From a virus, in the IMG/VR virus record IMGVR_UViG_3300046697_000119, positions 1-48,794 of that record: a stretch of DNA of 48,794 nucleotides, one strand, 5' to 3'. The translations under genes and the position numbers were made by a program. Position 1 is the stretch's first letter. Each line of letters starts with the position of its first letter. Below are positions 2,151 through 38,617 of the stretch, one piece after another. A model generated the notes under the pieces. The model did no database searches, was not told where the DNA came from, and saw only the letters and a program-made list of their open reading frames with translations.

Positions 2151-2158
2151 GCACTCTA

Positions 2159-12682: not shown

Positions 12683-12911
12683 ACCCAATTGCAACCCCAG
12701 TGTTCACGGAATAAAACGTCACCTCTTTCGTTCCAGTCTGCAATCCATACACCATCGTCTGGGGGGTCGAATACTGCCCACCGAGTTTCCGCCAAAGCTG
12801 CTGGAACAAATAAAACCACGGTTGGGCAAAAGTGTACGAGGCGTCAGGATTTGCAACATCCGTCACAACGCCCAGGTTGAGTGGAATCCCAGCTTGTTGC
12901 GCAGTAGCCAC
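12666..12911 (-). CDS. Small putative tail/virion protein
   Basis: 81 aa, GTG start preceded by GAGGGAG. The sequence TFAQPWFYLFQQLWRKLGG followed by short beta segments (VYGLQTGTKEVTFYSVNTG) has no recognised domain, but its place next to the gp10-like hub gene suggests a virion part. The C-terminus overlaps the start of the sulfotransferase fusion. Confidence 0.7.
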   Translation of the reverse strand: MATAQQAGIPLNLGVVTDVANPDASYTFAQPWFYLFQQLWRKLGGQYSTPQTMVYGLQTGTKEVTFYSVNTGVAIGYVTLT

Positions 12912-20081: not shown

Positions 20082-20980
20082 CACGAAACTCCTTGACTTA
20101 CGTTTACTTTCTCATCAAGTCCCTTCGGAACATAATTCCACGGATCATACTCTACCGGGGTAATCACATGTCGTGGAAACATCCCTCGCAGAAGTGAAAG
20201 TTTCATCTCGTCGCGGAGGAGTCCTGCGGGTTTATCCGAAGCCGAATTCGAAGCCTCTTGCGAAATGGGAGTCGGGACCGCAGGCCCTCCAACTGGGGTG
20301 TTGATTCTTGCATACACCTCGCCGGCACTCCGTGGAGTTCCATTGGGTTTGTAGAAGATCTCTTTGTTTGCCGCAACCTGATCCGGCGCGACTAGCGAAG
20401 TAGCCACGACGTTTGGATTTGCCATCATTGCCTTCAAAAATGCCGGACCGCCGGCTTCTCCGAGGAACCAATTCATATGAATGTTCCCAGGAGTTACGTC
20501 AAGGCCATGCGAGGTGAGAATCTTTGCTTGGTCTGCTGCGTGAGTACGAACATAGGCTTGTTGCGCGGGAAGCGCAACCGCAGGATCTGAAGAGTAAAAC
20601 TCACTGAGTGGCGGAAGTTCCGGATGTCTTGCAGATACTCCCTTTGCGGTCGCCGGAGTAAACTGCCCAATCCCGTATGCCCCCGATGCGGTATTGTGTG
20701 CATCGAACTTTCCACCTGACTCATGCTGCACCAAAAACGCCTCTGTCTCAGAGGGATCGAATGACTGCAAGAGTGCATTCGGGCGAGAGGGCGAAGTTTC
20801 AGGAGCGCCAGATGCCGAGTTACTCATAAGCAGACTTGGAGCAGAGCTTGGGGGAGTGTTCAAAATCGGAGCCCCTGTAGGTGTCAGCAACGTAGTCGCC
20901 CTCGACGGACTCCATCCCATCGGAATCGTCGAGTCCACAAGGTTTCCTGCGGCATTCGAAGTGTCACTGTCGTTGGTCAC
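20081..20980 (-). CDS. Lytic transglycosylase-like virion protein (SLT fold)
   Basis: 299 aa with a GTG start overlapping the portal stop (GTGA). Residues 82-110 contain the SLT signature: VQHESGG (catalytic Glu87), then GAYGIGQFTPATA. This domain cuts peptidoglycan glycan strands, and a virion-linked copy would open the cell wall during DNA entry. The N-terminal 70 residues are Ser/Pro-rich and flexible. DNA near its 3' end (20187-20221) is repeated exactly at 16670-16704. The gene is not part of the lysis cassette, which supports an entry role. Confidence 0.82.
   Translation of the reverse strand: MTNDSDTSNAAGNLVDSTIPMGWSPSRATTLLTPTGAPILNTPPSSAPSLLMSNSASGAPETSPSRPNALLQSFDPSETEAFLVQHESGGKFDAHNTASGAYGIGQFTPATAKGVSARHPELPPLSEFYSSDPAVALPAQQAYVRTHAADQAKILTSHGLDVTPGNIHMNWFLGEAGGPAFLKAMMANPNVVATSLVAPDQVAANKEIFYKPNGTPRSAGEVYARINTPVGGPAVPTPISQEASNSASDKPAGLLRDEMKLSLLRGMFPRHVITPVEYDPWNYVPKGLDEKVNVSQGVS
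20187..20221. repeat. 35-bp exact direct repeat, copy B
   Basis: Identical to 16670-16704. In the transglycosylase gene this copy encodes LLRDEMKLSLLR near the C-terminus. The two copies are 3.5 kb apart in the same orientation and flank the scaffold and coat genes. Confidence 0.85.
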
Positions 20981-23310
20981 ATTGGACTCCGCAGGTTTGC
21001 CCCAGGAACATTATGCAGTTGTGCCAGCGGAGCGACCTTGAGGTATTTCCCTTTTCGCATTGGGTCCGTCAAGTACCACTCACCATCGGGAGCCTTCGCC
21101 GCGCCTGGAATCGGGGGAACTTCAGGAGGTGGCACAACTTCGCTCGCTACCCCGTCACCCTTCGTCTGGATCTTAATCTCATCCATAATGCCGCCAATGG
21201 AAGTTTTGAGAGAGTCCTGAACCGCTTGGGCAATAAGCGCCTGCAAGCCAGCCGGATCAGTTGGAAGCAACTTCGCCAACGCCGAGATCCGCTTCGTCTC
21301 CGCGTCATACACCTCGACCTCGCGGAGTTCGTCCTTGTTATTGAGTTTGATGCGGTCGCGGGCATGAAGGTCCATCTCCTTCACAAGTGCCCCTTGCATT
21401 GCCTGGAGTTGTTGCTGGAGCAGTTGTTCTTGCTGCGTCGGTCCCTGCCCCAGCGCAACAGGGGGCACCATTCTACGAAGTCTCAGTGACGCTTCTGCGG
21501 CACCCTCAAACTGCATATTCTTCAACAACACATCACCCAGGATAGGAATGAGCCCCGGCGCTTGTGTCAAGAGGAGAGTCATGTTTTCGACGGTCTCCTC
21601 GCGGCGAGTGTCATGGCTTGGACCGACTGTCGCCCCGACCTCGTACTTCCCAACTAGCGGATTCATTATCCTCTTGATTACCTCACCACGGAAGTTTTGC
21701 TCCTGAACGAACCCGGCCCGAAGCGACGGGTCAATCACAAGGTCGTACTCCATCCCATCCGACGCGATGATGCGTTTGATGCGTTTGGTGTCGTAGAGAC
21801 GGGGATACAAGTCGAGTAGTTGCTTCCCAAGCGCAATCAACATCCCTTCGTAGTTGTCTTGGAAGTGAAAATTCGCCGTGGCACTTTGCGACCGCCTCGC
21901 GTTGATCGCCGCCCCGGTGCGTTCGTTGCCAGGCTCCCCCAACTGATTCTCATACTGCCCTGAGACCATCATGATCTGTTGGCGGGAATTCTCCATGGCC
22001 TGCTGGAAGCCCGGCGAAGCTTGCGGCGGATCAATCCGCTGCGGCGGCGGAATGGGCACCTCGGGATTGCCCTCCGGATCGATATGATTATATGGCAATA
22101 CTGCCGGGTTGTCGATGTTCGACATCCGCCAAATCGCTTCGTGTTCCTCAATCGCCTTCGCTGGAGCCAGCCAAGGGGCCTTGGTCTGAAGAGCGAGTCC
22201 TTCGATCTGAGCAGAGGAGAAGTAATTGAACATTCTCTGGGCATCAAGCATATATCGAGTGTGGCCCTTGCGGTCGAGACGGCCTTCGATGACGGTTTCC
22301 TCTCCGAGGCACCGAATGATGGGGATGTATTTCCCGAGCCAAACCGTCTGCTCGATCACCTCGGACCCAACAATCAAGTACCATTCCACCTCGTCCGACG
22401 TGGCTTCGCGGAGCCTTGTAGTTTCACGATCGAGAATGCCATCACGGGCCTCTTTGTCACGGATAAGCCGCTCAAAGCGCGTCCGTGGAAAAGTGAACCG
22501 CTGGCCCTGGTGGAGGAAACTCACCAGTTCGCTCCGCTTCGGCACCTTCCGGAAGTACTCACAAACCCGAATGTGGCTTTCGCCCCGGCGGTCTCCGGGG
22601 GACCCTCCGAGCCCCAACGGCTCGGTTCCCTTGACACGAGCAACTAGATCTGGATACGCATCCCGGAAGTCCTGCCGGGGAACGTCATCGAAGATGAAGG
22701 CAAACTTGGCGTCAAGGCCGTTCCCGCCTACGTGGATGTCCGGATCCAAAAACACCTGCATCGGGTCGTCGATTGGGTCGATGTAGACTTCCTGATTGAA
22801 CGAGTCGTCCGCCTCGTATCGCGTCACTAGGCGGGCATACCCTACTCCCCCATCGACCGCCCAAGACCGAGCGACGGGAAGAGCGAGATGCTGCGCATCA
22901 GAGATTTGTTGAGTGTGCCTGAAGAGGTCCTGCATCACATCCGCGGAATCTTGCGAAGCACCGTTGCCCATTCCAAGGAACTTAACTTCGGACTTATTCT
23001 TCCGCATCTCATTCGAGATCAGTTTGTTGTGAGCCCGGATGAGATTCAACGTGAGGCAGGGCCTCGCGGTGTTCTCACGGGCGTTCCGAATTTCATTAGG
23101 CCACTGAAAGCCGTTCTCGGAGTCCCCATAAGCGAACTTGATGTCCCGGAGGAACCGCTGCCTCCACTCGCCTTCCCACTCATTACACCGGTCGAAGCGC
23201 TTCCGAGCCTCCTGAACGACCGGGTCGTCCGACAGGACGGATGGATCAAGGGCGTCTTCGTCGGGCTTCGCTTCGCCGCGGCGTTTCGGGCGTCCACTCA
23301 CCTCATCCAT
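20977..23310 (-). CDS. Portal protein, P22 gp1-like
   Basis: 777 aa. WRQRFLRDIKFAYGDSENGFQW, the following NARENTARPCLTLNLIRAHN and VYIDPIDDPMQVFLDPD are typical of P22-family portals, which form the 12-fold ring at the packaging vertex. A long C-terminal helical region (QQEQLLQQQLQAMQGALVKE) fits the barrel or coiled part. It follows the large terminase gene with a 13-base overlap, the normal order. Length is close to that of P22 portal. Confidence 0.9.
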   Translation of the reverse strand: MDEVSGRPKRRGEAKPDEDALDPSVLSDDPVVQEARKRFDRCNEWEGEWRQRFLRDIKFAYGDSENGFQWPNEIRNARENTARPCLTLNLIRAHNKLISNEMRKNKSEVKFLGMGNGASQDSADVMQDLFRHTQQISDAQHLALPVARSWAVDGGVGYARLVTRYEADDSFNQEVYIDPIDDPMQVFLDPDIHVGGNGLDAKFAFIFDDVPRQDFRDAYPDLVARVKGTEPLGLGGSPGDRRGESHIRVCEYFRKVPKRSELVSFLHQGQRFTFPRTRFERLIRDKEARDGILDRETTRLREATSDEVEWYLIVGSEVIEQTVWLGKYIPIIRCLGEETVIEGRLDRKGHTRYMLDAQRMFNYFSSAQIEGLALQTKAPWLAPAKAIEEHEAIWRMSNIDNPAVLPYNHIDPEGNPEVPIPPPQRIDPPQASPGFQQAMENSRQQIMMVSGQYENQLGEPGNERTGAAINARRSQSATANFHFQDNYEGMLIALGKQLLDLYPRLYDTKRIKRIIASDGMEYDLVIDPSLRAGFVQEQNFRGEVIKRIMNPLVGKYEVGATVGPSHDTRREETVENMTLLLTQAPGLIPILGDVLLKNMQFEGAAEASLRLRRMVPPVALGQGPTQQEQLLQQQLQAMQGALVKEMDLHARDRIKLNNKDELREVEVYDAETKRISALAKLLPTDPAGLQALIAQAVQDSLKTSIGGIMDEIKIQTKGDGVASEVVPPPEVPPIPGAAKAPDGEWYLTDPMRKGKYLKVAPLAQLHNVPGANLRSPM

Positions 23311-25862: not shown

Positions 25863-27332
25863 TCACGGCTCCGCCGACGCGGAGATGATTCCAGACGAGC
25901 TCGAAGTCCCCAACGACATCCAATGATTGGACGTTCCAGCTGCACCAACGGTCACGGTGCAGTTCATCAGGAACCCCACATTTGATGCCACTGTTGCCAA
26001 CGAAGTCGACAGACTGTTGCTCGTGCAGGTGCTGGTCGAAGTCTCCGCGACCTGCCCAAACACCTGGAACCCTGCCGTGAACATCACGACCGGAGCGATC
26101 CTCATCGGCACCGGGAACGGCACGTAACAATTCGCCCCGGTCGTCGCAGTGTTCTCACACATCCCATTGACCGTCAACCCGAGCGACTGTTGCTCATAAT
26201 TGAAGTACCAATATGAATACTCCAACGCAGCTTCAATCTGCGCCGGCCGACGCTCAAAGGCCGTCGGAGCAACCACGCCGTTCGGCAACGTCGGAGTCAC
26301 CATCGAAGGCTTTGCCTCAAGCTGGAGTCCCTGGAGTTCGATCCAGTCCGTCGTGATCGCCGTCGCCACAGTCGGAGTGAAGCAAACCTGGACTGAGACG
26401 TCGGTGACTGCCGTTGTGGTTCCCGGAATCGTCGCCGGAATGGATGCCGCAACTGCATAGCGAGTCCAAGTGGTCGACCCGGCGATAGTGACGAACCCAT
26501 TCGTCCCAATCGTCCCGGCCGTTCCGGCCACGAGCACCGGAGCCGCCGCGGTTTGGTTTGTCGGCCCCGAGGTGCCGAAGGTCGTGGCGTTCGTTCCGAT
26601 AGCGTACTTGGACCCCTGCGAACCGGCGTATCCGAGCGTCGCTTGGGTCCCCGCCGCCGCACTCGCGGAGGAGTACGAGATCTCCACCGTGAATGCACCA
26701 CCCGCAGCAGACATTCCCGCCCCGTTCAACTCATAGAACGAAAACACCGCGTTTGCGCCAATGAGAGGAGCACTTTGGAGCTGGTCAAGAGTCTGGCCGA
26801 CGCACTCCAGAGCCCCAGTCGCACTCGAAGTCCTCGCCAGTCTCAACGCATGGGTCGACCCGAGCGCCGGGAGGGCCTCGGTCGACCCAGACGCAATCGT
26901 CACTGTGTTGCTGGTGGTGCCTTTGCCGTAGAGCCACCAACCATCCGCACTCATCACCGCTGCCGTGGCAGTGATGCCTGCGAGTGTAGCAAGACCCTTA
27001 GTCGTGCTGAGGCGCTGGCCGAGGTTGGTATCGAAGTCCCCACCAATGAGACGGTTGGTACCGAACGGAAGCGCCAACTCGGACGTCGGAACCAGCTCAG
27101 TCTGGGGGAACTGCCCCTGACCGAGCCCTGTGTCCACTGCAACAGTCTCCGAGCCCGTCAGAGCCGGAGCTCCTGCCGGAACATAGCTGGTGCAAGCCCC
27201 GTTCGTGAAGCTAGCGCAGTACTGCGGACCTCCCACAAGGGGCACATTCGGGAAGAACCCTGCCGCAAGAGCGGCTGCGCTCCCCACCACACTCGCGGCG
27301 ATCAGCCCCGCGAGGATCTTTCGCTTAGTCAT
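25863..27332 (-). CDS. Adhesin- or fibre-like protein with Sec signal peptide
   Basis: 489 aa. ATG preceded by AGGAGAG. The N-terminus MTKRKILAGLIAASVVGSAAALA is a classic signal peptide, with cleavage probable after ALA. The rest is Thr/Ser/Ala/Gly-rich and beta-rich. The region around residues 265-400 (TTWTRYAVAASIPATIPG, LQLEAKPS, AAPTAFERRPAQIEAALEYS) resembles carbohydrate-binding or tail-fibre modules seen in phage adhesins. Paired Cys (CASFTNGACTSY) could form disulfides, as expected for an exported protein. It follows two other fibre-like genes in the late operon. Role is inferred. Confidence 0.75.
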   Translation of the reverse strand: MTKRKILAGLIAASVVGSAAALAAGFFPNVPLVGGPQYCASFTNGACTSYVPAGAPALTGSETVAVDTGLGQGQFPQTELVPTSELALPFGTNRLIGGDFDTNLGQRLSTTKGLATLAGITATAAVMSADGWWLYGKGTTSNTVTIASGSTEALPALGSTHALRLARTSSATGALECVGQTLDQLQSAPLIGANAVFSFYELNGAGMSAAGGAFTVEISYSSASAAAGTQATLGYAGSQGSKYAIGTNATTFGTSGPTNQTAAAPVLVAGTAGTIGTNGFVTIAGSTTWTRYAVAASIPATIPGTTTAVTDVSVQVCFTPTVATAITTDWIELQGLQLEAKPSMVTPTLPNGVVAPTAFERRPAQIEAALEYSYWYFNYEQQSLGLTVNGMCENTATTGANCYVPFPVPMRIAPVVMFTAGFQVFGQVAETSTSTCTSNSLSTSLATVASNVGFLMNCTVTVGAAGTSNHWMSLGTSSSSGIISASAEP

Positions 27333-27368
27333 TTCACTCTCCTCGGGGGCACTTTATGCTCCCCTGTC

Positions 27369-27388
27369 TTGGGGGACCATTCCCCCAA
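27369..27388 (-). terminator. Perfect 8-bp hairpin between fibre genes
   Basis: TTGGGGGA / TCCCCCAA with a 4-base loop, in the 85-base gap between the genes ending at 27418 and starting at 27332. No U-run follows, so it may be a processing or stabilising hairpin rather than a full terminator. Confidence 0.4.
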
Positions 27389-27417
27389 ACTCTCACTACT
27401 CCGGCGAGCATCGCCGT

Positions 27418-29325
27418 TTAGTATCTCAACTGCGCCGAGAGTTGGTGGCCTTGCCCGGCCACACTTCCCGAATTGCCGCTACCATAGAAATAGGTAAGCG
27501 TCGCCTCAGACGACCATTCCAACGCTTGCAAATAGTGAACGCCAGCCGCCAGTTGCGTTCCAAGATTCGCCATTGCAGTTCCATTTGTACGGATACCGGC
27601 CGACGCCGGCCCATAGACTTGGCCAATTTGCCCAGACGGCGTTGCAGTAGAGTCCAGCCCGATACCAATCGATGGGCTACCGCCCGCACTCGCCTGGATT
27701 ATTTCAGCAAAAGTGGCGTCAACAAAATCTTCTTGCTGCCCGATAACCACCGTCACGCGATTATTGGCGCTGCCATCCGACTGCTGCCATGTCGAATTGG
27801 CTTCCTGCCAATTTGCCTTACTGTCTTGCGCAAGACCGATGACCGGAACCCGATTGGTCTCGTTCCACAACCCCACCCATGCGCCATTTGTCGGGCCTCC
27901 GCTCGCCGCCGCCGGAGTCGGATTGAACGTCACCTTCGCGCCGCCAGCATCAGTGGCAATCGTACCGAGGTATGTTCCATATCCCGCCGCAGGACCATTC
28001 GTGATAGCGACCGAATTCACCAGGATGCCATTGACCCTCGCGAAGGCGTCACCCGCCGCCGGTGTCGTCACGCTCGTCCACGCCACGTCCCGCGTCAACG
28101 TACAGGTTCCGGCGTTGTTCCACGCCACGAGATCATACACACTTGCCGCGACTGCCGCCGCAGGCCCTGCATTCCCCGAGGACGAATTCGCCAGAATGTT
28201 TGTCATCACTGGGCAAACCGTCGGAACAAAATACGCCCCGTTCCATAACGGCACGAGGTTTCCCACATACGGAACTGCCGCAACGGTTCCAACCCCTGTC
28301 GCCGAAGAAGGCGAAATCGGATTCGTCAGCGACGTACTGAGCCGAAATTGCGATGGCACAATCGCCGGATATGCTGTTGCAGCGTTGTACTGAATGATTT
28401 GCCAATTGCCCGAGCCAAGATAGAGCACCCACGCAGTATCATTTGTAGCGGTAGTAATGCTGACGCTGTTTGGTGTCAGGAGCCCAGCAGACTCCGTGAT
28501 CGTCAGAGGTGATGAAAACTGCACCAGATAAAGCGGCCACTGGGTCGTCGCGGAACTTCCGAACGACGTAATCGTGGTCCCCCCTGTCACAATCACGTCA
28601 TGCGAGGCTATCGTCCCAAGGTCCGTCGTGGCCGCAGCGGTGATGACAGTCTGAACTCCAATGCCGGGGGCTGGCAGGAGCGCCTGTAGGATGAAGGCGT
28701 TCAGGCTTGCCGAATACGTCGCAAACTCGAGGTTTCCGTCGGCAATCTCATCCCCCGTAAGGGTCGCAGGCCCCGTCGAGGTGTTCTTCTCAACCAACAC
28801 ACTCCCATATCCCGAGGCATTAATTGTCGTCGACCCGGTGTTGGCGGCATTCGCGATGAACCCCACAGTCTGCCCATCCTTCGCAACAAACCCGGCGGGA
28901 GTCGACAGAGTGATCGCGTTCGCGGTTCCAGTTGCAGTTCCGTACCAAATAACGCCTCCGGAGCCCCCCGACGACGAGGTCGGGCTGGCATAAGTGAGTT
29001 GATCCCACACAACGACCCCGTTGAGGTCCTGGACGACCTGCCGATACTCCCCAGAGCCCCAAATGATAGCCCTTCCGTTCGTATCCAGCGTAATAGGATT
29101 CTGGTTAGGGGTATTTCCGAGGGGGTCCTGATAGGTCGCCTTCGGCGTTGTGGTGAACGGGACGTACATATACACCCGACCGCCCACATACGGCGCGCCG
29201 CTGCCGTCGCTGAACTGAGTCATCCCGTTCGGCAAAATCGCCTGAGTCTGGGCAACAGCGACCGAAGCAGACCCAACTCCAACGAGCACAGTAAGTACAC
29301 TAAGAAGCTTTGCAAACTTTATCAT
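27418..29325 (-). CDS. Tail-fibre/tailspike-like protein with Sec signal peptide and head-binding-type domain
   Basis: 635 aa from ATG 29325. KFAKLLSVLTVLVGVGSASV then AVAQ forms a signal peptide. Directly after it, GGRVYMYVPFTTTPKATYQD, PITLDTNGRAIIWGSGEYRQ and DLNGVVVWDQLTY follow the pattern of the phage N-terminal attachment module also seen in P22-tailspike head-binding domains. The remainder is Thr/Ala/Gly-rich, beta-rich and ends in SAQLRY. A virion-binding domain behind a signal peptide is odd, since virions assemble in the cytoplasm. Likely receptor binding; unusual export is inference. Confidence 0.75.
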   Translation of the reverse strand: MIKFAKLLSVLTVLVGVGSASVAVAQTQAILPNGMTQFSDGSGAPYVGGRVYMYVPFTTTPKATYQDPLGNTPNQNPITLDTNGRAIIWGSGEYRQVVQDLNGVVVWDQLTYASPTSSSGGSGGVIWYGTATGTANAITLSTPAGFVAKDGQTVGFIANAANTGSTTINASGYGSVLVEKNTSTGPATLTGDEIADGNLEFATYSASLNAFILQALLPAPGIGVQTVITAAATTDLGTIASHDVIVTGGTTITSFGSSATTQWPLYLVQFSSPLTITESAGLLTPNSVSITTATNDTAWVLYLGSGNWQIIQYNAATAYPAIVPSQFRLSTSLTNPISPSSATGVGTVAAVPYVGNLVPLWNGAYFVPTVCPVMTNILANSSSGNAGPAAAVAASVYDLVAWNNAGTCTLTRDVAWTSVTTPAAGDAFARVNGILVNSVAITNGPAAGYGTYLGTIATDAGGAKVTFNPTPAAASGGPTNGAWVGLWNETNRVPVIGLAQDSKANWQEANSTWQQSDGSANNRVTVVIGQQEDFVDATFAEIIQASAGGSPSIGIGLDSTATPSGQIGQVYGPASAGIRTNGTAMANLGTQLAAGVHYLQALEWSSEATLTYFYGSGNSGSVAGQGHQLSAQLRY

Positions 29326-29356
29326 CTTTCTCACCCACAAGAGCGGCGGGGCTTGT

Positions 29357-29725
29357 TCAGTCGCGTTGGTGGAAATTGGCCCCAAGCGCGGCAATCGACG
29401 TGCGGAACGAATCCATAATCAGCGCGCCGAGCCGATCGAGATCGTGCCTTGTCGCCATGTCAGAGCGGATGATCTCCATCTTCGCATCGAGCGCCCCGAC
29501 CTGACGTTCGACCTTCGCATCCGAAGCGCTAAACTTCATCTCGGCGTCTTGACGGTATTTCTCCAAATCGTCCTTGACTCGTTTGGCAATGGCTTCGTTT
29601 CGGCCGCCGCGCCAGATGAAGCCGACGATCGCGATCATCGCCCCCATGAATCCGCCACTTCCGAGTAGGGTCACTGCGATCTCCCATGTCGACCATGCCG
29701 CCTCAGGCGTCATCGGCGCAGCCAT
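29357..29725 (-). CDS. Membrane-anchored coiled-coil protein
   Basis: 122 aa. One membrane span at about 17-38 (AVTLLGSGGFMGAMIAIVGF), then a charged helix (KRVKDDLEKYRQDAEMKF to about residue 95), likely coiled coil. This layout resembles inner-membrane spanins or small holin partners, and it is near lysis genes, but no lipobox partner is evident. Spanin is one possibility only. Confidence 0.65.
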   Translation of the reverse strand: MAAPMTPEAAWSTWEIAVTLLGSGGFMGAMIAIVGFIWRGGRNEAIAKRVKDDLEKYRQDAEMKFSASDAKVERQVGALDAKMEIIRSDMATRHDLDRLGALIMDSFRTSIAALGANFHQRD

Positions 29726-29781
29726 CGCGTCGTCCTTTCGTTAGTCCGCGCCGTGCTTACCAACGCGGTTGTTAAGTCGTC

Positions 29782-29800
29782 CGGCGACTGCGAGTCGCCG
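29782..29800 (-). terminator. Perfect 8-bp intergenic hairpin
   Basis: CGGCGACT / AGTCGCCG with a 3-base loop, in the 76-base gap between the genes at 29802 and 29725. Strong stem, no U-tract; may stop or process late mRNA. Confidence 0.4.
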
Positions 29801-29801
29801 A

Positions 29802-30014
29802 TCATTGGCCGAAACAAACGATCCCACCCCACCAGAAATGGCAGGCGAGAAACCCGGCGACGAGCCCAGCCACGAATGGCAGCGGCGGCCACGCCTTTGA
29901 AAAATCCCAGACGGTGCGCGATAGCGTAGCGCGATTGGTGTGAAGCGCCCACCATTCGGCGATACCGAACGTCACCGCGATCCCGACCACCCAAAATGCC
30001 CAACAGGTTTCCAT
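29802..30014 (-). CDS. Small inner-membrane protein with two spans
   Basis: 70 aa from ATG 30014, one base after the nucleosidase stop. Two hydrophobic spans (CWAFWVVGIAVTFGIAEWWA; FVAGLVAGFLACHFWWGGIV) flank a polar loop with TLSRTVWDFSKAWPPLP. I recall similar small proteins in phages and prophages of Rhizobiales. A holin-like or envelope role is possible. Confidence 0.7.
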   Translation of the reverse strand: METCWAFWVVGIAVTFGIAEWWALHTNRATLSRTVWDFSKAWPPLPFVAGLVAGFLACHFWWGGIVCFGQ

Positions 30015-30015
30015 G

Positions 30016-30684
30016 TCATGCTCCAAAGCTGATCCCGATGTCAACGAGCGCCTTGGCGAGCGCATCAAACGCCGCTTCGGCGGAATCAGCGAGGTCGAGC
30101 AGCGCAGGCAGCTCTTCGTGATCGTTCGGCAACGTGTCGATCAGCGTCCAAATTACCGCTTGCCAATTGACGCCGCCCGTCTTGTCCATCGCGGCGAGCG
30201 CGGCGGCCGGAATATCCTGGTTGGCGGCGTCGGACACCGCGCGCAACATGGTGAAGGGAATGCCGCGCGCCTTGCTGCGCGCCGCGATCAAGGACTCCAT
30301 GTCGACGACATCGGCCTTGGTCGCGGCATAGAGCGCGGCCTTGTCGGCGGCGGTCGCAACCGTCACGGCGGAACCTGTCCCGACGACGGGTCGGGCGCCG
30401 GTTAGGTCACGCAGCCGCTTCGACCACGCCGCGTCGCAGAATATACCTGGCGACGGCGGATCGACCATTAAGCCGGCGACGACCAGATCGCCGACTTTGA
30501 GCGCCGGGTTGAGCGCGCCGCAGGTGCCGAAGCTCAGCACATGATCGCAGCCGCCGGCGATCACCGCCTCGAGGTCGGCCGCCAGCTTCTCCGCGTTGCC
30601 GGCGCCGACGATGACGATCGCATTGTCCGGGTGGCCGAGGATGGCGGCTTCTTGCTGCATGCCGCAGACAAGCGCGATCTTCAT
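30016..30684 (-). CDS. Nucleosidase/phosphorylase of the PNP-UDP superfamily, HpnG-like
   Basis: 222 aa from ATG 30684. LSFGTCGALNPALKVGDLVV is the family's nucleoside-binding Gly loop region, and VVDMESLIAA followed by PFTMLRAVSDAA is the active-site and Asp motif. The VDMES and LRAVSD style is closer to hopanoid-associated phosphorylase (HpnG, which removes adenine from adenosylhopane) than to MTA/SAH nucleosidase, though that is a judgement by eye. A cytosolic enzyme in a phage lysis region is unexpected. It may alter hopanoid lipids or clear SAM by-products from methylation. GC-rich codons suggest host origin. Confidence 0.75.
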   Translation of the reverse strand: MKIALVCGMQQEAAILGHPDNAIVIVGAGNAEKLAADLEAVIAGGCDHVLSFGTCGALNPALKVGDLVVAGLMVDPPSPGIFCDAAWSKRLRDLTGARPVVGTGSAVTVATAADKAALYAATKADVVDMESLIAARSKARGIPFTMLRAVSDAANQDIPAAALAAMDKTGGVNWQAVIWTLIDTLPNDHEELPALLDLADSAEAAFDALAKALVDIGISFGA

Positions 30685-30685
30685 G

Positions 30686-31189
30686 TTAGTTCCCTGCGGG
30701 CGCGGTAAGAGGCACAACTGGCGGCGGCACGCCTTCTGATGTGGCTGACGCTGGTGTGGTGATCGTCAATCCGACCACTGGCACCTTGGCGCAGATCGAC
30801 GTGAAACTGAACGGCAGCATCCCAATGGCTAACGCCTGCGCGGCGTTCGCCATGTCCTGCCAGACCTGTGCGCAAGCCGTGTTGCGGCAAATTCGGTTTA
30901 GCTCGGCTTGATCGAGCCGGGCATACTCGATATCGGTCGCAAGGTGGAACGTCAGCGGGAGCGGATGCGCCTGGATCAGCGATGCGAGCGTTTGGATTTC
31001 GGCCAGGCAGGCATTGCCAACTTGATCTTGCAGCTCAGGCGTCGCGAGCGAGGCCGTCATGGCAGCAGCGACATCAGCTTGAGCCCACGCCCCGATTGCG
31101 TTAAGCGGGTTGGACTTGGCGGTCGGCTGGGCAACGGCGACGCTCGCGGTCAGTGCGAGCGCGGCGGCGAGAATGAAAGGCTTGCGCAT
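30686..31189 (-). CDS. Periplasmic small protein with signal peptide
   Basis: 167 aa from ATG 31189. MRKPFILAAALALTASVAVA is a signal peptide. The mature part begins QPTAKSNPLNAIGAWAQADV and is helical, with four Cys (VGNACLAE, RICRNTACAQ, SICAKV) that could form disulfides in the periplasm. Neighbouring holin, endolysin and membrane genes suggest lysis or envelope work, but no family function can be stated. Confidence 0.7.
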   Translation of the reverse strand: MRKPFILAAALALTASVAVAQPTAKSNPLNAIGAWAQADVAAAMTASLATPELQDQVGNACLAEIQTLASLIQAHPLPLTFHLATDIEYARLDQAELNRICRNTACAQVWQDMANAAQALAIGMLPFSFTSICAKVPVVGLTITTPASATSEGVPPPVVPLTAPAGN

Positions 31190-31191
31190 GT

Positions 31192-31536
31192 TTAACTCCC
31201 AAGACGAGAGGAAGATCGCGGCGTATCGACCTGCATCGACGGCGACGACTCGTCGACGACCTTGCGGCCATTGTCGGCGTCGTTCACCGCAGCGATCTGC
31301 GCCGTCTGCGTGTGTTGATTCCTTTTGTACCAGCCAGTCGCGACAGCAACACCGGCGAAGACCAAGAACATCAAATCGTTGGCGATGGTGGGGACATCGG
31401 CGGACGGAATGAGGCCCTTGTTTGCCGCCCACATGGCCGCCGCCGATGCGAGCGAGAGGACGATGCTGGTCACAAGGCTCGTGGTCTGCGGGTCCATTGG
31501 CGCATCGGTAGTGCCGGACTTGACTGGCTGAGACAT
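31192..31536 (-). CDS. Putative holin
   Basis: 114 aa from ATG 31536, chosen for the strong upstream GGAAGGAG. Two hydrophobic spans (SLVTSIVLSLASAAAMWAAN; DLMFLVFAGVAVATGWY) are followed by a charged tail (KRNQHTQTAQ). Size, two spans and position directly after the endolysin gene fit a holin that controls the timing of lysis. The antiholin or trigger cannot be read. Confidence 0.7.
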   Translation of the reverse strand: MSQPVKSGTTDAPMDPQTTSLVTSIVLSLASAAAMWAANKGLIPSADVPTIANDLMFLVFAGVAVATGWYKRNQHTQTAQIAAVNDADNGRKVVDESSPSMQVDTPRSSSRLGS

Positions 31537-31552
31537 TTTGGTTCTCCTTCCT

Positions 31553-32233
31553 TCACTCGGTCCCGCCGAGCGCGGCAACGTTCAGATCAACAGTCAACAA
31601 CCCTCCGATCGCGACAGGGCAGGAAATCTCCGCCTCATCATCCCGCTGCCACATGACAGCGCCCGCATAGCCGCTCGTCGCGGGATCGGGCGTCGGGAAG
31701 ATCGTCCCCGTAACACGGTGCGGCGCGGTCGTCTTGACGTGAAACACCCAAATCTTGACGCTCGGCCGAAGCGCGGCGATCTGCGCCGCCATCTGGAACG
31801 AGCAATAGACGCCGGAGGTATAGCCGCCGCCGCGAACCGCGTCGATCCAGCTCGCGACATACTCGCGCTGCGCCGTTCCGAGCGGCAGGCCGTTCTCGAT
31901 GTCTAGGAAGACCGTCGAGCCCTTCGCGTATCCCTCCCCCGCCATGAGCCGGCAGGCGTCCGCGCCATCGAGCGCGCCCTGCGCCGCGTTGACGCTCGGG
32001 TTGGTGATCAAGCGCCCCGCATTGTCGCAGACCTGCCGGCCGACATAGACCGGATACAGCCTCCACCCCATGTCGAGGAGTTCCTGGCGATGGCCCATCC
32101 ATGATCTTTCGCCGTGGTCGGGCGCTGGCGCGAGATAGGGCGCACACACCCGCAAGTTCGTGTTGGCGATCAGCCATGTCATGACGGGCAGGCCGGGGAA
32201 ATCGGAACGGTCGAAACCAGCCAAGCCGCTCAT
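31553..32233 (-). CDS. Endolysin candidate, DUF1906/GH25-like glycoside hydrolase
   Basis: 226 aa from ATG 32233 (TGATG overlap with the upstream gene). The N-terminus AGFDRSDFPGL (D8, D11) and TVFLDIENGLP (D111, E113) are the barrel-end acidic residues of DUF1906/GH25-like muramidases; GYTSGVYCSF and VMWQRDD continue the (beta/alpha) barrel pattern. It would cut peptidoglycan. No signal peptide is present, so it would rely on the adjacent holin. Confidence 0.8.
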   Translation of the reverse strand: MSGLAGFDRSDFPGLPVMTWLIANTNLRVCAPYLAPAPDHGERSWMGHRQELLDMGWRLYPVYVGRQVCDNAGRLITNPSVNAAQGALDGADACRLMAGEGYAKGSTVFLDIENGLPLGTAQREYVASWIDAVRGGGYTSGVYCSFQMAAQIAALRPSVKIWVFHVKTTAPHRVTGTIFPTPDPATSGYAGAVMWQRDDEAEISCPVAIGGLLTVDLNVAALGGTE

Positions 32234-32421
32234 CAGATTAATCCTTTCATCCAACGCCAGACCGCGTAAAGCGCGGCGAGGAAAATGAACTCCGTGCCGC
32301 TCGCTTCGTGGACAAGAGCCTTGGCCGTTTCCATAGAGGTGCATGGCCAAGGGAAGCGCTCCGCCGCCAGCGCGGGGTCGGCGGCGAGAACGAGGGAGAG
32401 GACAAGCGCGCCGCGGATCAT
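32233..32421 (-). CDS. Small exported or membrane protein
   Basis: 62 aa from ATG 32421. N-terminal signal-like segment (IRGALVLSLVLAADPALAA), a short polar part with one Cys, and a second hydrophobic span (GTEFIFLAALYAVWRW). It may have two spans or one cleaved leader plus anchor. It lies directly upstream of the endolysin gene; a regulator of lysis is possible. Confidence 0.6.
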   Translation of the reverse strand: MIRGALVLSLVLAADPALAAERFPWPCTSMETAKALVHEASGTEFIFLAALYAVWRWMKGLI

Positions 32422-32476
32422 CGGGTCACTTCTTAGGCTCGGGCGCCGGCGTTGTGGGCTTCTCAGGTGCATCCTT

Positions 32477-32560
32477 TTATTTCAGCACGTCACCGATCAT
32501 GATGGCGATGCTCGTCACGATCGGACTGAGTAGTATTATTGCACACACAATTCTAATCAT
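32477..32560 (-). CDS. 27-residue hydrophobic peptide with in-frame extension after the stop
   Basis: ATG at 32560 twelve bases after the fibre gene stop. The peptide MIRIVCAIILLSPIVTSIAI and on makes one membrane span. After the TAA at 32477-32479 the same frame continues for 16 codons (KDAPEKPTTPAPEPKK) to TGA at 32426-32428. A TM segment followed by a Pro/Lys-rich tail looks like one original protein of about 44 aa, so the TAA may be a recent nonsense change or a site of readthrough. Real but short; weak ribosome site. Confidence 0.4.
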   Translation of the reverse strand: MIRIVCAIILLSPIVTSIAIMIGDVLK

Positions 32561-32571
32561 GACATTAACCC

Positions 32572-35500
32572 TTAATTTAGAACGGCTCCGCTCATGTCGA
32601 CGGTAAGATTTGTCACCGTTGGAGAGCCTGCTCCACTATACAATCCAAAATAACCCTGCGAATACAAGCACCCGTTTGAGCAATTATCTATGATCCAGTT
32701 TTGCGAATACGCAGGTATCATCACACCGGCTACCTGACTCTTCATTTCCATGCCAAAAATCTGCGGAGCCCCAAGATAATTTGTTTCCCCTAAAAATACT
32801 CCTGCAATAGGCGTGGTAAGTTCCGCACCAGAATTAACGGACGTAACCGTGCGAGAAATTATCGTATTGGTAATCGCCTCGATGTCAAGTTCCCATCCGT
32901 AGTCAGTGCTCCCCCCAAACCCTGTAAATGGGAAAGTAAAATTGGTCCACGGGGTAAGAGATGGCGGATTGACGTGTACCACAAAGTTGATGGTTTCGTT
33001 AGGATTTTGTATGTAGTTACCGATCCCGAGTGACGTTCCATACGTCGCCTCTGGATCGCCGAGATAATATATGTCGCCAGTTGTGCCGTTAGTGACCATT
33101 TGAAATACGACAGCCGTTGCATTTGCTGGAATTGTCGCCGTCACTTCGCGCCATTCAAACCCGCCCACACTTGATCCGGTGCCATTTGTCGAACAGGTAG
33201 AACCACTTTGAGGTGTATATATACACAAAGTCCACGTGCCGGTTCCTCCCTGAACTTTTTGGTATACATACCCTCCAAAGACAACATTACGTCCAGCGAC
33301 AGAATGCATTTTTACTGGCGGCAACCCATAAGTAACATTCTCTGCCGAGGTCGTCCCCTTTCGCATTCCGAGACTATAAATAGCTCCGGGTGGAATATTA
33401 ACAGTGAAATCGTCTCTCCATGCAAGGAGAGATGGGGTCTTGTTCCACCCGTCAGGCCCTGCGCCAGTCGAGCCAGCAATATCTCCAACCATGATGGGAA
33501 ACGCGGTTGTCGCGGACGATGTTACTGCTGTGTTCTGAAAAGGCAACCATGCGTTGAACGACACATTTGGATTTACCGCCACAACCCGCATTGGCGCAGA
33601 TCTTAGCGCCGCATCACCGGTATTAAAGTAGATATCATCGCCAACTTTAAGTACTTGTGTGTTGGCAGTGTAGAATGTTGTATTGTTTACGCCAGTCGTA
33701 AAGCTAGTGACTGCGACGTTATTTTCTGTCCCCGTTCCTTGTGAATTTTCTTTGGAGCTAGGACCCCATGCCGAGGCGACCTGCCACTGTGTATTAGTTA
33801 ACAAATTACTCGAAACCGAAACCGTAGAGGCGCCGCTCGGCGACCCCGGCTCAAAGTCATTGTTGGTCGAATTCCATACTGGGACTTGGCCGCTCGTATA
33901 GGCCGCCCCGTACTTATACGCGAGCCCCTGAACCTTCGCGACGGTCGGGCCGGGGTATGAGCCCGAGAGATCGCCGCTGGCCGAGCCGTTCGGCGGGAGC
34001 GCGGTCGGGATTGAGGCGTTAACGGCGTTATGGACGAAAGCATCGGTCGCAATGTCGGTTGACGTGTCAGCCGTCGTCTGTGTCGGCGCGGCTGGCGTTC
34101 CGGTGAACGTCGGCGACGCCGAGAACACCAGGGCCGCCGAAGTCGTGCCGGTCGTGCCGTTGGCAGAGAATCCGGTAATGTTGTTGAAACAGGTGATGCT
34201 CGGCGAGGTGCAAGCCGTGCCGCCGTTTGCTGCGGGCAGCACCCCCGTCACGCCGCCGTTGCCGCTGGCGGAGAGGGTGATCGCAGCGAGATACGTCGCC
34301 GCCACGGTTCCGGAGTTAATCTCGGAGCCTGCGATCGACTTGTTAGTGAGGGTCTGGGTCGCGGCAAGCGCGGCCAGTGTGTCGCCACTAGCAACAGGGA
34401 GATACTCCGTGATTGTCCCAAGCGCCGTGCTCTGGATCGGCTCCAGCGTGACGACGCCCGACCCGTTGTTGCCCATCGCCACCGAGCCCGGCACGCCCGA
34501 CGAGCCCAGCGCCAGCGCTCCGTTCGATAGGATGGCATTTGTGTTGGTCGCACATCCGCCGAGGCCGTTCGACAGTAGAATGTCCCCGCTGACGCCACCA
34601 GTGACACAGCCGGATCCGCCAGCCGCCGGGGCCCAAATCGGATTTGCGGAGGCGCCCTGAGTTGACAGAAACCATCCGCTCGTACCGGGCGTCAGCGGTG
34701 CCCAAATCGTTGAGCTACGATAGAGAATGCTACCTTGGGTCGACCCAAGCGAGGCATCGATAAGCGCGGACAGGGTCTCGCCTGAGATAACAGAAGCCCC
34801 AGAGTAGTAGGCGGCGTAGCCAACCGACGAAGAGTTGACCACCGGGCAAGGCGCGCCTGAGTCAACGAAGTTTGAATTGCCGTCGATGTCGACGCAGTGC
34901 GTCGCCGTCAGCGCCCCGGTCGTGGTCACAAACTTGGTCGTGTTGCCCGACACCGAGCCGACGCTGGGGGCCGCCCCCACGCCACCGCCGATCACCGGCA
35001 TGTTCGCGGTCAACGCGCCCGAAGACGCCCAAGTCGAATTCGACGCGAAGTACGGAACTCCGCCCGACGTTCCGGCGACCGTCAGCGCGAGCGTCCCCGA
35101 GGTCGTGATCGGCGAGTTGGCGACGCTAATCAGACCGCCGGTGAATGTCTCACCGACGCTCTTGACCGTCCCAGCGTCGGTGATCCCATAACCACTGAGC
35201 GTTGTCGGGGTCGAGCCGACTTGTGTCCAAGGAACTGTAACTCCGCCCGGCAACGTCGTCGAGTCACCCAAAACCCCCGCGTTGTCCCACAACAATCCGC
35301 CGCTCGTCGAGGGCGAAATAGTTGTCGTACCTGGGGCGATCGAAGTCGCAACGGTGGAAATGGTGCAAGTCCCACCGAGCACACAAGACTGGCCATTCAC
35401 CGTTGTTGCGGAGTGTGTCAAATCCGAGTTCGTCACAAGGCCCGGTGCAACAAACGCTCCTGTGATATTAAAGTTTGGTGCAATGAGTCCGCCCGGCAAC

Positions 35501-35946
35501 GTTATTGAGTCGCCGAGCACGCCGTTGTTGTCCCAGAGCACCCCGCCATTCGTTTTCGGCGAAATGCTCGTCGAGCTAGGCGTTAGTCCCACAAAACCCG
35601 AAACTTGCGCAGGATTTAGCAGAACCCACGAGGTTCCAGTGCTGGTGAGCAGTGCGACATAGCCGGACTGGAGATCGCCTACTTGGAGGGCTCCACCAGT
35701 GGACCTCGTGATCGTCAGTGGTGGCGACCCCACCGGAGCGTAAGTCGGCGTGGTCGTGGTGTTCGCCGCAGCGGCAGTCAGAATCACCAGGTTGGTCGTC
35801 GTCCCGCAGGGAAGTTGTGCGGACGTGATGGCATCGGGGGTGCCCTGCGCCGCCACGTTCGCGATGCACTGGGTCTGCGCGATGCTCGGCGAAGCAATTG
35901 CCACCAGCAATCCTAACGCCCCTGCGATGCCCCAAACTCTTCTCAT
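32572..35946 (-). CDS. Large tail fibre/adhesin with Sec signal peptide
   Basis: 1124 aa. MRRVWGIAGALGLLVAIASP then SIAQ is a signal peptide. The N-terminal half is repetitive: blocks such as SGGLLWDNAGVLGDSTTLPG and NGGVLWDNNGVLGDSITLPG recur, with many Thr/Ser/Gly and LTNKSIAGSEINSGT, typical of phage fibres. The C-terminal third (about 730-1124) is distinct, aromatic-rich and probably receptor- or glycan-binding (WRDDFTVNIPPGAIYSLGM; GGFEWREVTATIPANATAVV). The DNA of that part is AT-richer, suggesting exchange of the binding domain. It is the longest gene in the window. Confidence 0.8.
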   Translation of the reverse strand: MRRVWGIAGALGLLVAIASPSIAQTQCIANVAAQGTPDAITSAQLPCGTTTNLVILTAAAANTTTTPTYAPVGSPPLTITRSTGGALQVGDLQSGYVALLTSTGTSWVLLNPAQVSGFVGLTPSSTSISPKTNGGVLWDNNGVLGDSITLPGGLIAPNFNITGAFVAPGLVTNSDLTHSATTVNGQSCVLGGTCTISTVATSIAPGTTTISPSTSGGLLWDNAGVLGDSTTLPGGVTVPWTQVGSTPTTLSGYGITDAGTVKSVGETFTGGLISVANSPITTSGTLALTVAGTSGGVPYFASNSTWASSGALTANMPVIGGGVGAAPSVGSVSGNTTKFVTTTGALTATHCVDIDGNSNFVDSGAPCPVVNSSSVGYAAYYSGASVISGETLSALIDASLGSTQGSILYRSSTIWAPLTPGTSGWFLSTQGASANPIWAPAAGGSGCVTGGVSGDILLSNGLGGCATNTNAILSNGALALGSSGVPGSVAMGNNGSGVVTLEPIQSTALGTITEYLPVASGDTLAALAATQTLTNKSIAGSEINSGTVAATYLAAITLSASGNGGVTGVLPAANGGTACTSPSITCFNNITGFSANGTTGTTSAALVFSASPTFTGTPAAPTQTTADTSTDIATDAFVHNAVNASIPTALPPNGSASGDLSGSYPGPTVAKVQGLAYKYGAAYTSGQVPVWNSTNNDFEPGSPSGASTVSVSSNLLTNTQWQVASAWGPSSKENSQGTGTENNVAVTSFTTGVNNTTFYTANTQVLKVGDDIYFNTGDAALRSAPMRVVAVNPNVSFNAWLPFQNTAVTSSATTAFPIMVGDIAGSTGAGPDGWNKTPSLLAWRDDFTVNIPPGAIYSLGMRKGTTSAENVTYGLPPVKMHSVAGRNVVFGGYVYQKVQGGTGTWTLCIYTPQSGSTCSTNGTGSSVGGFEWREVTATIPANATAVVFQMVTNGTTGDIYYLGDPEATYGTSLGIGNYIQNPNETINFVVHVNPPSLTPWTNFTFPFTGFGGSTDYGWELDIEAITNTIISRTVTSVNSGAELTTPIAGVFLGETNYLGAPQIFGMEMKSQVAGVMIPAYSQNWIIDNCSNGCLYSQGYFGLYSGAGSPTVTNLTVDMSGAVLN

Positions 35947-36015
35947 TTCAAGACTCTTTCTCGCACAAGGTCAGAAACCCGCCGAAACAAGCGAGCCAGA
36001 ATGTCGCAATCCAGA

Positions 36016-36354
36016 TCACGCAATCTCTCCAATCGCCGGCTGCGCATAGTCCGGGTCAGGCGTTACGCCATCGGCGAGAAACTTGACCGGCGGATAGATC
36101 GTCACGCCGGCGGGGACCGCCAGCAGCCCTGAAGCGAACGGGTTGAGACCGTTGATGCGCAGCCGAGACCAATAGCCGGGCTGGCCATCAACCACCCCGA
36201 CCACGTTGAGGAAATATGACGCCTGCGGGTTTGGGTCGCCGGGAATCGGGCCTTGCGTGATGAAGGTGGCGTTCGCGGCGTCCCAGAAGCCCATGCTTTG
36301 CGCGAGGGCCTGAAGCGTCGGCGCGTCGGTCGAGTCGATGACGAAGTCGGTCAA
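36016..36354 (-). CDS. Small fibre-associated protein
   Basis: 112 aa; ATG overlaps the upstream stop (ATGA). FVIDSTDAPTLQALAQSMGF begins a mixed fold; a pattern of strands follows (GYWSRLRINGLNPF; AGVTIYPPVKFL). No signal peptide. Small proteins of this kind occur next to fibre genes and may be chaperones or adaptors, but no family is recognised. Confidence 0.65.
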   Translation of the reverse strand: MTDFVIDSTDAPTLQALAQSMGFWDAANATFITQGPIPGDPNPQASYFLNVVGVVDGQPGYWSRLRINGLNPFASGLLAVPAGVTIYPPVKFLADGVTPDPDYAQPAIGEIA

Positions 36355-37703
36355 TGGAGCACCGTCGTTAGGAGCGTGTTGCGTTGGAGGACGGCGGCGG
36401 GAAGGGCGGTGGAGTAGAGGGCGAGCTTGGTGATGTAGCCGTCAAGAAATTTCGTCGTAGGAATCGATCCAATGAGGGCTGAACTTGGAGTTTGAAACAA
36501 GGCATTATCATTTGCAATGCTCCCGCCGTTACCAACTAAAGACCTACCAGAACCGTTAAACGAAACGCCAGATCGAACAATTCCTGTGTATGACCCCGAC
36601 CCAAGAGGCGTGCTTAACACCGCAGCGCCAGCGCGGCTGTACGCATTCGTTGCGTTGGTGGCCCGAAGAAACCAGCTCTGTACTACATTCCCGTAGATGA
36701 TGCTTGGCGACTGAGCTGCTGACGGAGAATCGAGATTGTTCGTCTCAGCTACTATCGCCCCTTGCGCGCCCTGAAGCACACCCAGCGCCACCCCCACGAT
36801 CCCCACCACGTCCGCCGAGCGGGTGACGGAGGATGCGCCGGTGGGGATGGCGCTGGTCGCGAAACCGCCCAACTCCACCTGCGGGTAGCTCATCGTCCCA
36901 AGCGTCGTAACGGTGACGACGAGGCTGGTAGTCAAGGTTGTGCCGGTGTAGGTCGTGCGGGTGGGGTAGGCCGAGCCAGTCATGACCTGCGTCAGCGCGC
37001 CCGAGAGCGTCAGAACGCCTGTGCCGTAGAAACTGATCGAGTAGGCTTGCCCGCTGGCGACGGTAACCGTCTGCGTCGCAGGCGAGCCCGAGTTGAGGAA
37101 CAGATTCGTCCGCGCTTCCTCGATCCTCAGCCCCAGCGGCGCGAGCGTCGTCGACGAGTAGTCAAACGCCGGGCCGTAGTAGGCCGCGCTGGTCGTGACA
37201 ACCTGATCGCCGGGGCGGGGAGTGGTTTCGTAGGTGATAGCGGAGAGGACGGCTCGCGTAACCGATCCAGAAACCGTCAGCGTGAGCGTGCCAACAGTCG
37301 GCCCGGTGACTTTGAGGTAGACCTGATTGTTCGCGCCGGTCCCGTTGAGCGTTCCTGTCGCCGCTCCGCTCAGCGTGACGGAGCCGGTTCCGTAGAAACT
37401 CAGCAGATAGTTCCACTGTGGACCTACCGTCACGCCTTGCGTCGAGAGCGTCGCGTTGTTCAGCAGCAAGCAATTCGGGGCACTGGTGATCGCCCCCGTC
37501 GCGTCGGTGATCGTCCGCAGCGACGCCCCGGAATAGGTATAGAGGCTCGGCGGGAGGGTCGAGTTGGTCTGCGTGAAGTCGGTGTAGACGGCGAGGGTGT
37601 AGCCGCTGTTCATGCGCAGGATGTTGAGGTTTGGAGTCTGGGCGCAGGCGAGCGCGAGGCCGAACCAGACAGCCGCGAGAGCGATGAGCGTCCGGCGAAG
37701 CAT
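36351..37703 (-). CDS. ConA-like or adhesin-type tail protein with signal peptide
   Basis: 450 aa from ATG 37703 (TGATG overlap). LRRTLIALAAVWFGLALACA with a Cys near the cleavage point forms a signal peptide; LACA-Q could even be read as a weak lipobox, uncertain. GLRIEEARTNLFLNSGSPAT and PQVELGGFATSAIPTGASSV, followed by RSADVV, match a common phage structural protein that carries two beta-sandwich repeats (both contain a YSISFYGTG / YLLSFYGTG motif). The C-terminus resembles LamG/concanavalin-like folds (DGYITKLALYSTAL). Receptor or glycan binding is likely. Confidence 0.78.
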   Translation of the reverse strand: MLRRTLIALAAVWFGLALACAQTPNLNILRMNSGYTLAVYTDFTQTNSTLPPSLYTYSGASLRTITDATGAITSAPNCLLLNNATLSTQGVTVGPQWNYLLSFYGTGSVTLSGAATGTLNGTGANNQVYLKVTGPTVGTLTLTVSGSVTRAVLSAITYETTPRPGDQVVTTSAAYYGPAFDYSSTTLAPLGLRIEEARTNLFLNSGSPATQTVTVASGQAYSISFYGTGVLTLSGALTQVMTGSAYPTRTTYTGTTLTTSLVVTVTTLGTMSYPQVELGGFATSAIPTGASSVTRSADVVGIVGVALGVLQGAQGAIVAETNNLDSPSAAQSPSIIYGNVVQSWFLRATNATNAYSRAGAAVLSTPLGSGSYTGIVRSGVSFNGSGRSLVGNGGSIANDNALFQTPSSALIGSIPTTKFLDGYITKLALYSTALPAAVLQRNTLLTTVLH

Positions 37704-38617
37704 CAGTTCAACTCCGCCTTGAGGCTGATGTGCTTCGATGCGGTCAGCACGCCCGATCCCGAAGTCGCCTGGAGCGACCAGTAGATCGTCGTAGCGATGG
37801 TGCTGAGATAGTTGCCGACGTTGATCGAACAATTCGTCTCAATGCCGTCGCCCCAGACCGCCGAGGGGAATGCGCATGAGTACGACGCAAGGTGGTGGCC
37901 CGAAGCGCCGGTTGACGGCAGCCAAGTCCCATGATCGCCGTTGGTCCACGTTACGGCGTCATCCCACAAGTCGACCTGCACCGAAACCCCGGCCCACGCC
38001 GTCGAGAGCGTGTCGTCGGTATAGAGCCGCAGCCGAGGGATCGCGCCGCCGGCCGCCGGCATGGAAAACGACGGATTGGTGATGTTCGCGGCCGTGCCGT
38101 TGTTGGCGATCAACTGCCCCGCAGTGTACGCCGTCGTCGTCGAGGTCAGGTTCATCGTCGAAGCGGCAGGAACAGTCGGGGTGACCGCCCAGGTGCCGGA
38201 CTGCGTCGCCCCAAACGCTGTGTTGCCGATACTGCCGCCGGCCTGGAATGGCGTCCCGAGCGCCGTCACAGCCGCTTGCGCCGACTTGCTGATCTGCTTC
38301 CATACCGACATGGCGCTGATCGGCGTCGTGTCTGTCGCCGCATTCGCCGCGTCGGCCTTCGTCCCCTCAGTGGCGTTCCATCCATCAACATAGGAGTCAG
38401 TGGCCCCAGCCGTATACAGCGGCGCTCCGCTGCTGTTAGTGGGGGTCACTGGGAGGGGATACGTCGAATTCGCCGGGCACTGCCCATACGTCGTCACACC
38501 CGAGGCATCCGTCGAGGCACACCGCCAGAACATCGTGACGTCCGCCGCAGACGCAGGAGTGAGCGCCGCGAAGAGTCCCCACCCCAGAAGGCCCAACAGG
38601 ACTTTCGAAGTCGCCAT
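37703..38617 (-). CDS. Beta-rich fibre-like protein with signal peptide
   Basis: 304 aa from ATG 38617, chosen because AAGGAG lies 8 bases upstream; GTG 38626 would sit inside that site. SKVLLGLLGWGLFAALTPAS then AAD is a signal peptide. Mature part: DSYVDGWNATEGTKADAANA and an Ala/Thr-rich beta domain (TAYTAGQLIANNGTAANITN; IPRLRLYTDDTLSTAWAGVS) like phage virion proteins of the same operon type. Probably surface adhesin or fibre; no catalytic motif. Confidence 0.75.
   Translation of the reverse strand: MATSKVLLGLLGWGLFAALTPASAADVTMFWRCASTDASGVTTYGQCPANSTYPLPVTPTNSSGAPLYTAGATDSYVDGWNATEGTKADAANAATDTTPISAMSVWKQISKSAQAAVTALGTPFQAGGSIGNTAFGATQSGTWAVTPTVPAASTMNLTSTTTAYTAGQLIANNGTAANITNPSFSMPAAGGAIPRLRLYTDDTLSTAWAGVSVQVDLWDDAVTWTNGDHGTWLPSTGASGHHLASYSCAFPSAVWGDGIETNCSINVGNYLSTIATTIYWSLQATSGSGVLTASKHISLKAELN

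Follow-up and report, generated by a model that had tools for sequence, protein, structure and literature searches.

The window analyzed here is the whole of the IMG/VR virus record IMGVR_UViG_3300046697_000119 (48,794 bases), which PHROG profile matches assign to a P22-like podovirus. Its gene at 27418..29325 (minus strand) is predicted, from its signal-peptide score and from matches of its head-binding domain (HBD), to encode a P22-type tailspike of 635 amino acids with a Sec signal peptide. In our view such spikes are probably exported to the periplasm, where they would be cleaved and acquire disulfide bonds, and would dock onto virions at lysis or later. The broader proposal, that virion completion takes place outside the cytoplasm in a widespread group of tailed phages, with Sec-exported, periplasm-oxidized spikes that dock only at lysis, is advanced tentatively, as possible but somewhat short of probable.

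In the textbook view, the assembly of tailed phages is wholly cytoplasmic. If the proposal is true, the last assembly step shifts to the periplasm or outside the cell, views of host range, phenotypic mixing and spike stability change, and many tail fibres are misfiled by searches in which a signal peptide counts against membership of the virion. Each ingredient is already known separately, be it this type of tailspike, the signal peptide or the export of phage-encoded proteins. The searched literature yielded no virion-binding tailspike that unites a conserved Sec signal with a disulfide signature, and no description of signal peptides on such tailspikes or tail fibres was found in a search that did not take in subscription journals or preprints.

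Signal peptides and the head-binding domain of the tailspike

Signal peptides were scored with a home-made scorer trained on 29 E. coli signal peptides, for which leave-one-out scores were mostly 13-26. The original prediction that five fibre-type genes all begin with Sec signal peptides was borne out, with scores of 12.4-19.9 versus 6.9 or less for the remaining 24 scored window genes. In all five proteins the N-terminus combines a basic n-region with a hydrophobic core and a site of the A-x-A type; they are encoded at 25863..27332 (MTKRKILAGLIAASVVGSAAALA/AGFFP, score 19.9; the slash marks the site), 27418..29325 (MIKFAKLLSVLTVLVGVGSASVAVA/QTQ, 18.8), 32572..35946 (MRRVWGIAGALGLLVAIASPSIA/QTQ, 12.4), 36351..37703 (MLRRTLIALAAVWFGLALACA/QTP, 12.7) and 37703..38617 (MATSKVLLGLLGWGLFAALTPASA/ADV, 19.4), and referred to below by the first coordinate. 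The positions originally given for these genes are their 3' ends, as all five are read from the minus strand. They flank the lysis cassette next to the terminase, with start codons at 27332, 29325, 35946, 37703 and 38617. Shine-Dalgarno-like sequences upstream were good at four of these starts and weaker at 29325. A sixth protein (30686-31189), which the original prediction had missed, scored 18.6.

The signal-type N-termini of the five fibre genes are well above chance: no more than 0.4% of composition-preserving shuffles scored as high as the real N-termini, none of 827 internal windows of the five proteins did so, and P22 structural proteins scored -1 or lower. The original observation thus holds, and with the sixth protein there are six in the window that start with Sec/signal-peptidase-I-type signal peptides; export of the signal-bearing proteins is well supported.

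The putative signal peptide of 27418 (MIKFAKLLSVLTVLVGVGSASVAVA before Q) spans residues 1-25 (29251..29325), with n-, h- and A-x-A-type c-regions as in substrates of Sec and signal peptidase I. Its cleavage site was placed with the help of homologues, whose signals end in AQ/TQ or A/QTQ at the same place; the scorer's own site, QTQA/ILPNG, lies four residues downstream. The head-binding-type module noted in the original prediction is the HBD at residues 30-113 (28987..29238), an 84-residue module recognized by profile and predicted-fold matches. Its profile matched the PDB entries for the tailspike HBD of cyanophage Pam1 (7eeq, E 1.1e-7) and the Pan3 tail spikes (9vyg and 9vyh, E ~1e-6), and an AlphaFold model of the domain, with a predicted local distance difference test (pLDDT) of ~75-85, matched Pan3 with Z 11.1 and the P22 HBD with Z 9.3-9.4. 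Residues 124-216 matched a baseplate/tail-fibre structure of Pseudomonas phage Pa193 (Z 8.4, 30% identity). Full-length AlphaFold models were poor (mean pLDDT 45 and 50), and only the HBD part of 27418 was used; the model of this protein falls below a pLDDT of 50 after residue 413, and two relatives (L112 and L086) have a pectate-lyase-like domain after the HBD.

The same phage has a P22-type tail-hub gene, the head-closure protein Hc3 (12924..14477, minus strand; phrog_578, 1.9e-61), which is P22 gp10-like and predicted to belong to the hub to which P22-type spikes bind. With the N-terminal HBD present, the product of 27418-29325 is identified by sequence and modelling as a P22-type tailspike. 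No further HBD was found in the window, and the P22-like virion would therefore otherwise be without a known spike.

Comparison with known phages sets the signal apart from the module. The tailspike of P22 itself, gp9 (PDB 1lkt, 2vky and 8u1o), shares the predicted HBD fold of 27418 at the Z scores above, and a P22-type portal and Hc3 are common to both phages; the same role as a spike is predicted for 27418. However, gp9 is without a signal peptide (score -12.3), whereas in 27418 the HBD is immediately preceded by a Sec-type signal. The Pam1 and Pan3 tailspikes, virion spikes solved in place, were compared with the window spike through the HBD and gave its best sequence matches, with Pan3 also the best predicted-fold match. 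The spikes of Pseudomonas phage PAE2 and Rhodoferax phage P26218 have the same module at the N-terminus (MTQLLPNG and MATLLPEG, respectively) but start directly at it, without a signal (scores -15.6 and -8.0).

Signal-bearing late proteins also exist in named phages. Two tail fibres of Bradyrhizobium phage ppBdUSDA122-1 (WAX24263 and WAX24264) have predicted signal peptides (17.0 and 19.9), and WAX24264 has a signal and a cysteine pair, both of which are missing at the aligned positions of its homologue in Rhizobium phage RHph_TM16. This phage differs from the window phage in that it has a tail tape measure protein, i.e. it is long-tailed, and its two fibres are without a P22-type HBD. Acetobacter phage phiAX1, which has a P22-type portal, has a signal-bearing late gene after the coat protein gene (PhiAX1_440, 17.6), the only one of its 52 scored genes at 10 or above; no HBD of the surveyed profile was found in phiAX1.

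Head-binding domains with and without signals, and their cysteines

The HBD was surveyed with scan profile A5 at 102 loci, 80 on virus contigs and 22 in bacterial genomes. The script called 43 loci with a signal, 53 without and six undecided; L149, L151, L169, L191, L180, L193, L186 and L223 were moved to the signal side by eye, and L125 and L127 were left unclassified. Removal of near-copies and addition of an earlier set gave 89 non-redundant HBD spikes, 37 with a signal and 52 without.

The distance of the HBD from the initial methionine was bimodal, -1 to 8 residues without a signal (2-7 in PAE2, P26218 and other signal-less spikes) and 21-48 residues with one, and no spike fell between. 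The estimated cleavage site usually lies 0-6 residues upstream of the HBD, and N-termini after predicted cleavage resemble those of signal-less homologues, such as QTQAILPNG in the window and MTQLLPNG in PAE2. Cleavage of the signal would, as judged from these alignments, restore the N-terminus of the signal-less homologues.

Two other origins of the segments were rejected. Lipoprotein export through signal peptidase II was discarded because the lipobox pattern [LVI][ASTVI][GAS]C matched none of the 43 signal-bearing HBD spikes of the survey; the LALAC segment of 36351 does not fit it either. Wrongly chosen start codons were discarded as the source of the signals because in relatives the signal-coding start is often the best supported, and they are also contradicted by signal-less genes that begin 0-8 residues from the module.

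The type of the signal is conserved, while its sequence is not. In a set of six close relatives, identity is 23% across the signal segments and 79% across the HBD, and therefore selection maintains the character of the signal; in the family of 25863 the corresponding figures are 33% and 63%. The tree of the module needs eight state changes, at least two of them forced by well-supported branches, and therefore the signal was gained or lost more than once. In the portal tree, signal-bearing and signal-less phages group apart, with weak support for the signal-bearing group (74/66).

In relatives, between two and five genes of the fibre cassette encode a signal, and none of the capsid/coat, portal and hub genes does. 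Some signal-bearing spikes have, as judged by their domains, ordinary tail-fibre or tailspike plans plus a signal: in L113 and L117 the HBD is followed by a Phage Tail Collar domain (PF07484, 3e-18 and 3e-16), and in L112 and L086 by the pectate-lyase-like domain. L024 carries a signal-bearing fibre (score 14.8) near a signal-less HBD spike (910-3552 and 8600-9964), and therefore the two states can coexist in one genome. On the contig that also holds L189, a signal-less HBD spike (L115, 5980-7785) has cysteines in its HBD and is possibly a case of recent signal loss.

Where bacteria have a Dsb system, their exported proteins tend towards even numbers of cysteines. Even counts were found in 31 of 33 signal-bearing versus 14 of 38 signal-less HBD spikes (Fisher 3.5e-7), as expected of disulfide-bonded periplasmic proteins, and in 13 signal-bearing spikes a cysteine pair lies within the HBD. 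On 25 related contigs, 37 of 41 signal-bearing late proteins, all of which contain cysteine, had even counts, versus 100 of 231 cysteine-containing signal-less proteins. Collapsed by family, counts were mainly even in 15 of 18 signal-bearing versus 44 of 108 signal-less families. In the window the counts are even for 27418 (two), 25863 (eight), 32572 (14), 37703 (four) and 30686 (four), and 36351 has one cysteine.

Proposed export and docking, and alternative explanations

Under the proposed mechanism, the tailspike and accessory fibres would be made as Sec precursors and exported by the host Sec system, and cleavage by signal peptidase I would leave the HBD at the new N-terminus. The mature spikes would fold and form disulfides in the oxidizing periplasm, and spikeless heads would be completed in the cytoplasm. 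After rupture of the envelope by the holin, the endolysin and the other lysis functions, the spikes would dock via the HBD on the tail hub of released virions. Of these steps, we infer that cleavage really occurs, that folding is periplasmic and that docking takes place at lysis or later.

P22-type tailspikes are the last part added to the virion and bind through the HBD alone, and those of P22 can be added in vitro to spikeless particles. Therefore, exported spikes could still dock after lysis, and the objection that export would remove these proteins from assembly need not hold; among the options raised in the original prediction, unusual assembly at the envelope is the nearest to the evidence. 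Likely benefits would be disulfide-hardened receptor-binding parts and the separation of glycan-binding spikes from cytoplasmic glycan precursors. If the mechanism is true, spikes are shared goods in the lysate, and phenotypic mixing between co-infecting phages is possible.

Several points weigh against this mechanism. Spikes that dock outside the cytoplasm must overcome dilution once the cell has lysed; the signal peptides were scored with a home-made tool; cysteine parity counts are not independent between relatives, and a test collapsed by family gives less support (binomial p 0.004); and a signal-HBD spike was not found in any cultured phage, the cassette being known mostly from uncultured contigs.

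The chief alternative, which we regard as unlikely, is that the exported fibres never join virions and instead cover or trim the infected cell's surface, prevent superinfection, or serve as free depolymerases or decoys. Export is well supported, some of the non-HBD fibres of the window could act in this way, and phage-encoded signal-bearing proteins have precedents in the surface protein Lom of lambda (PMC12309495) and in the esterase gp40 of Xanthomonas phage PBR31, which adjoins the tailspike (PMC10975493). However, a superinfection coat or decoys, as the original prediction had also suggested, would leave unexplained why many divergent lineages retain a virion-binding HBD, with homologues solved in virions, precisely at the mature N-terminus; the window is without another HBD protein, and the Collar and pectate-lyase architectures that follow the HBD also argue against this alternative.

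A split fate, in which a cytoplasmic fraction of the spikes is packaged owing to slow export or internal starts past the signal and the remainder is exported, appears improbable. Internal GTG or TTG codons occur just upstream of the HBD in several genes, such as L080, but these starts are weak and not conserved across relatives, and the disulfide signature covers the whole protein.

It is more doubtful still that the segments are uncleaved anchors, of the signal-anchor or SAR (signal-arrest-release) type, that tether the spikes to the inner membrane until lysis. Short hydrophobic N-termini can serve as anchors, and SAR precedents exist among phage endolysins, but a membrane tether, another of the options originally raised, is disfavoured by the conserved small-residue, cleavage-type sites 0-6 residues before the HBD and by the missing lipobox, and the HBD would bear an extra helix that its signal-less homologues do not have. 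Least probable of all is that the segments are hydrophobic helices for trimer formation or virion attachment, for although they always adjoin the attachment domain in HBD spikes, they have n-, h- and c-regions, are missing from half of the HBD homologues, also occur on fibres without an HBD, and are associated with even cysteine counts.

Other signal-bearing genes and the gene neighbourhood

Sequence style, family conservation and position are the grounds for calling the four signal-bearing genes without an HBD fibre-like, and whole-fibre profile searches in Pfam and PHROGs returned almost nothing. The 489-amino-acid product of 25863..27332, which adjoins TerL, belongs to a family of which 10 members were aligned, each with a signal-like N-terminus and conserved cysteines. 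Its central part is beta-rich in a weak AF2 model (mean pLDDT 45), and the A2 profile of the family had no credible match in the PDB. The long fibre-like protein of 32572..35946 (1124 amino acids) had no database match, and neither it nor 25863 had a match in 50,697 phage records. Only 36351..37703 (450 amino acids), the start of which overlaps the stop of the upstream gene, matched a PHROG tail protein (phrog_5939, 1.2e-13). The 304-amino-acid product of 37703..38617 has an N-terminal homologue in L011, likewise with a predicted signal peptide. The sixth signal-peptide protein (30686..31189, minus strand, 167 amino acids) lies between lysis genes and has a homologue in L014.

Scanning of genome contigs found no bacterial relative with profile A1 and a single one with profile A2, a Beijerinckiaceae metagenome-assembled genome that alone links the 25863 family to bacteria. 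Only 22 of 397 genomes from the order of that genome have an HBD, nearly all of them signal-less; the one signal-bearing case is L136, in which the start is not certain.

The lysis cassette includes an endolysin-type glycoside hydrolase similar to Rv2525c (31553..32344, minus strand; PF08924, 2.6e-12), predicted to be without a signal peptide (score -10.4), and inside the fibre and lysis cassette lies a gene of the nucleoside phosphorylase family (30016-30684; PF01048, 1.6e-15). The P22-type portal protein is encoded at 20977..23310 (minus strand; phrog_156, 4.6e-94), and PHROG matches also identified a scaffold, a DNA-ejection protein and the large terminase. The terminase (23298-25763) has an apparent intein at about residues 32-378 (CLGLGTKV to VTHN/S); that of the relative L010 (7933-9405, 491 amino acids) is shorter and seems to be without one. 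Among the tail genes, 11603-12694 appears by eye to combine a P-loop/sulfotransferase-like N-terminus with an acetyltransferase-like C-terminus, and it matches a PHROG annotated as hydrolase (1e-11). On the plus strand, frames resembling a uracil-DNA glycosylase and a family A DNA polymerase were recognized by eye from the translation at 722-4092.

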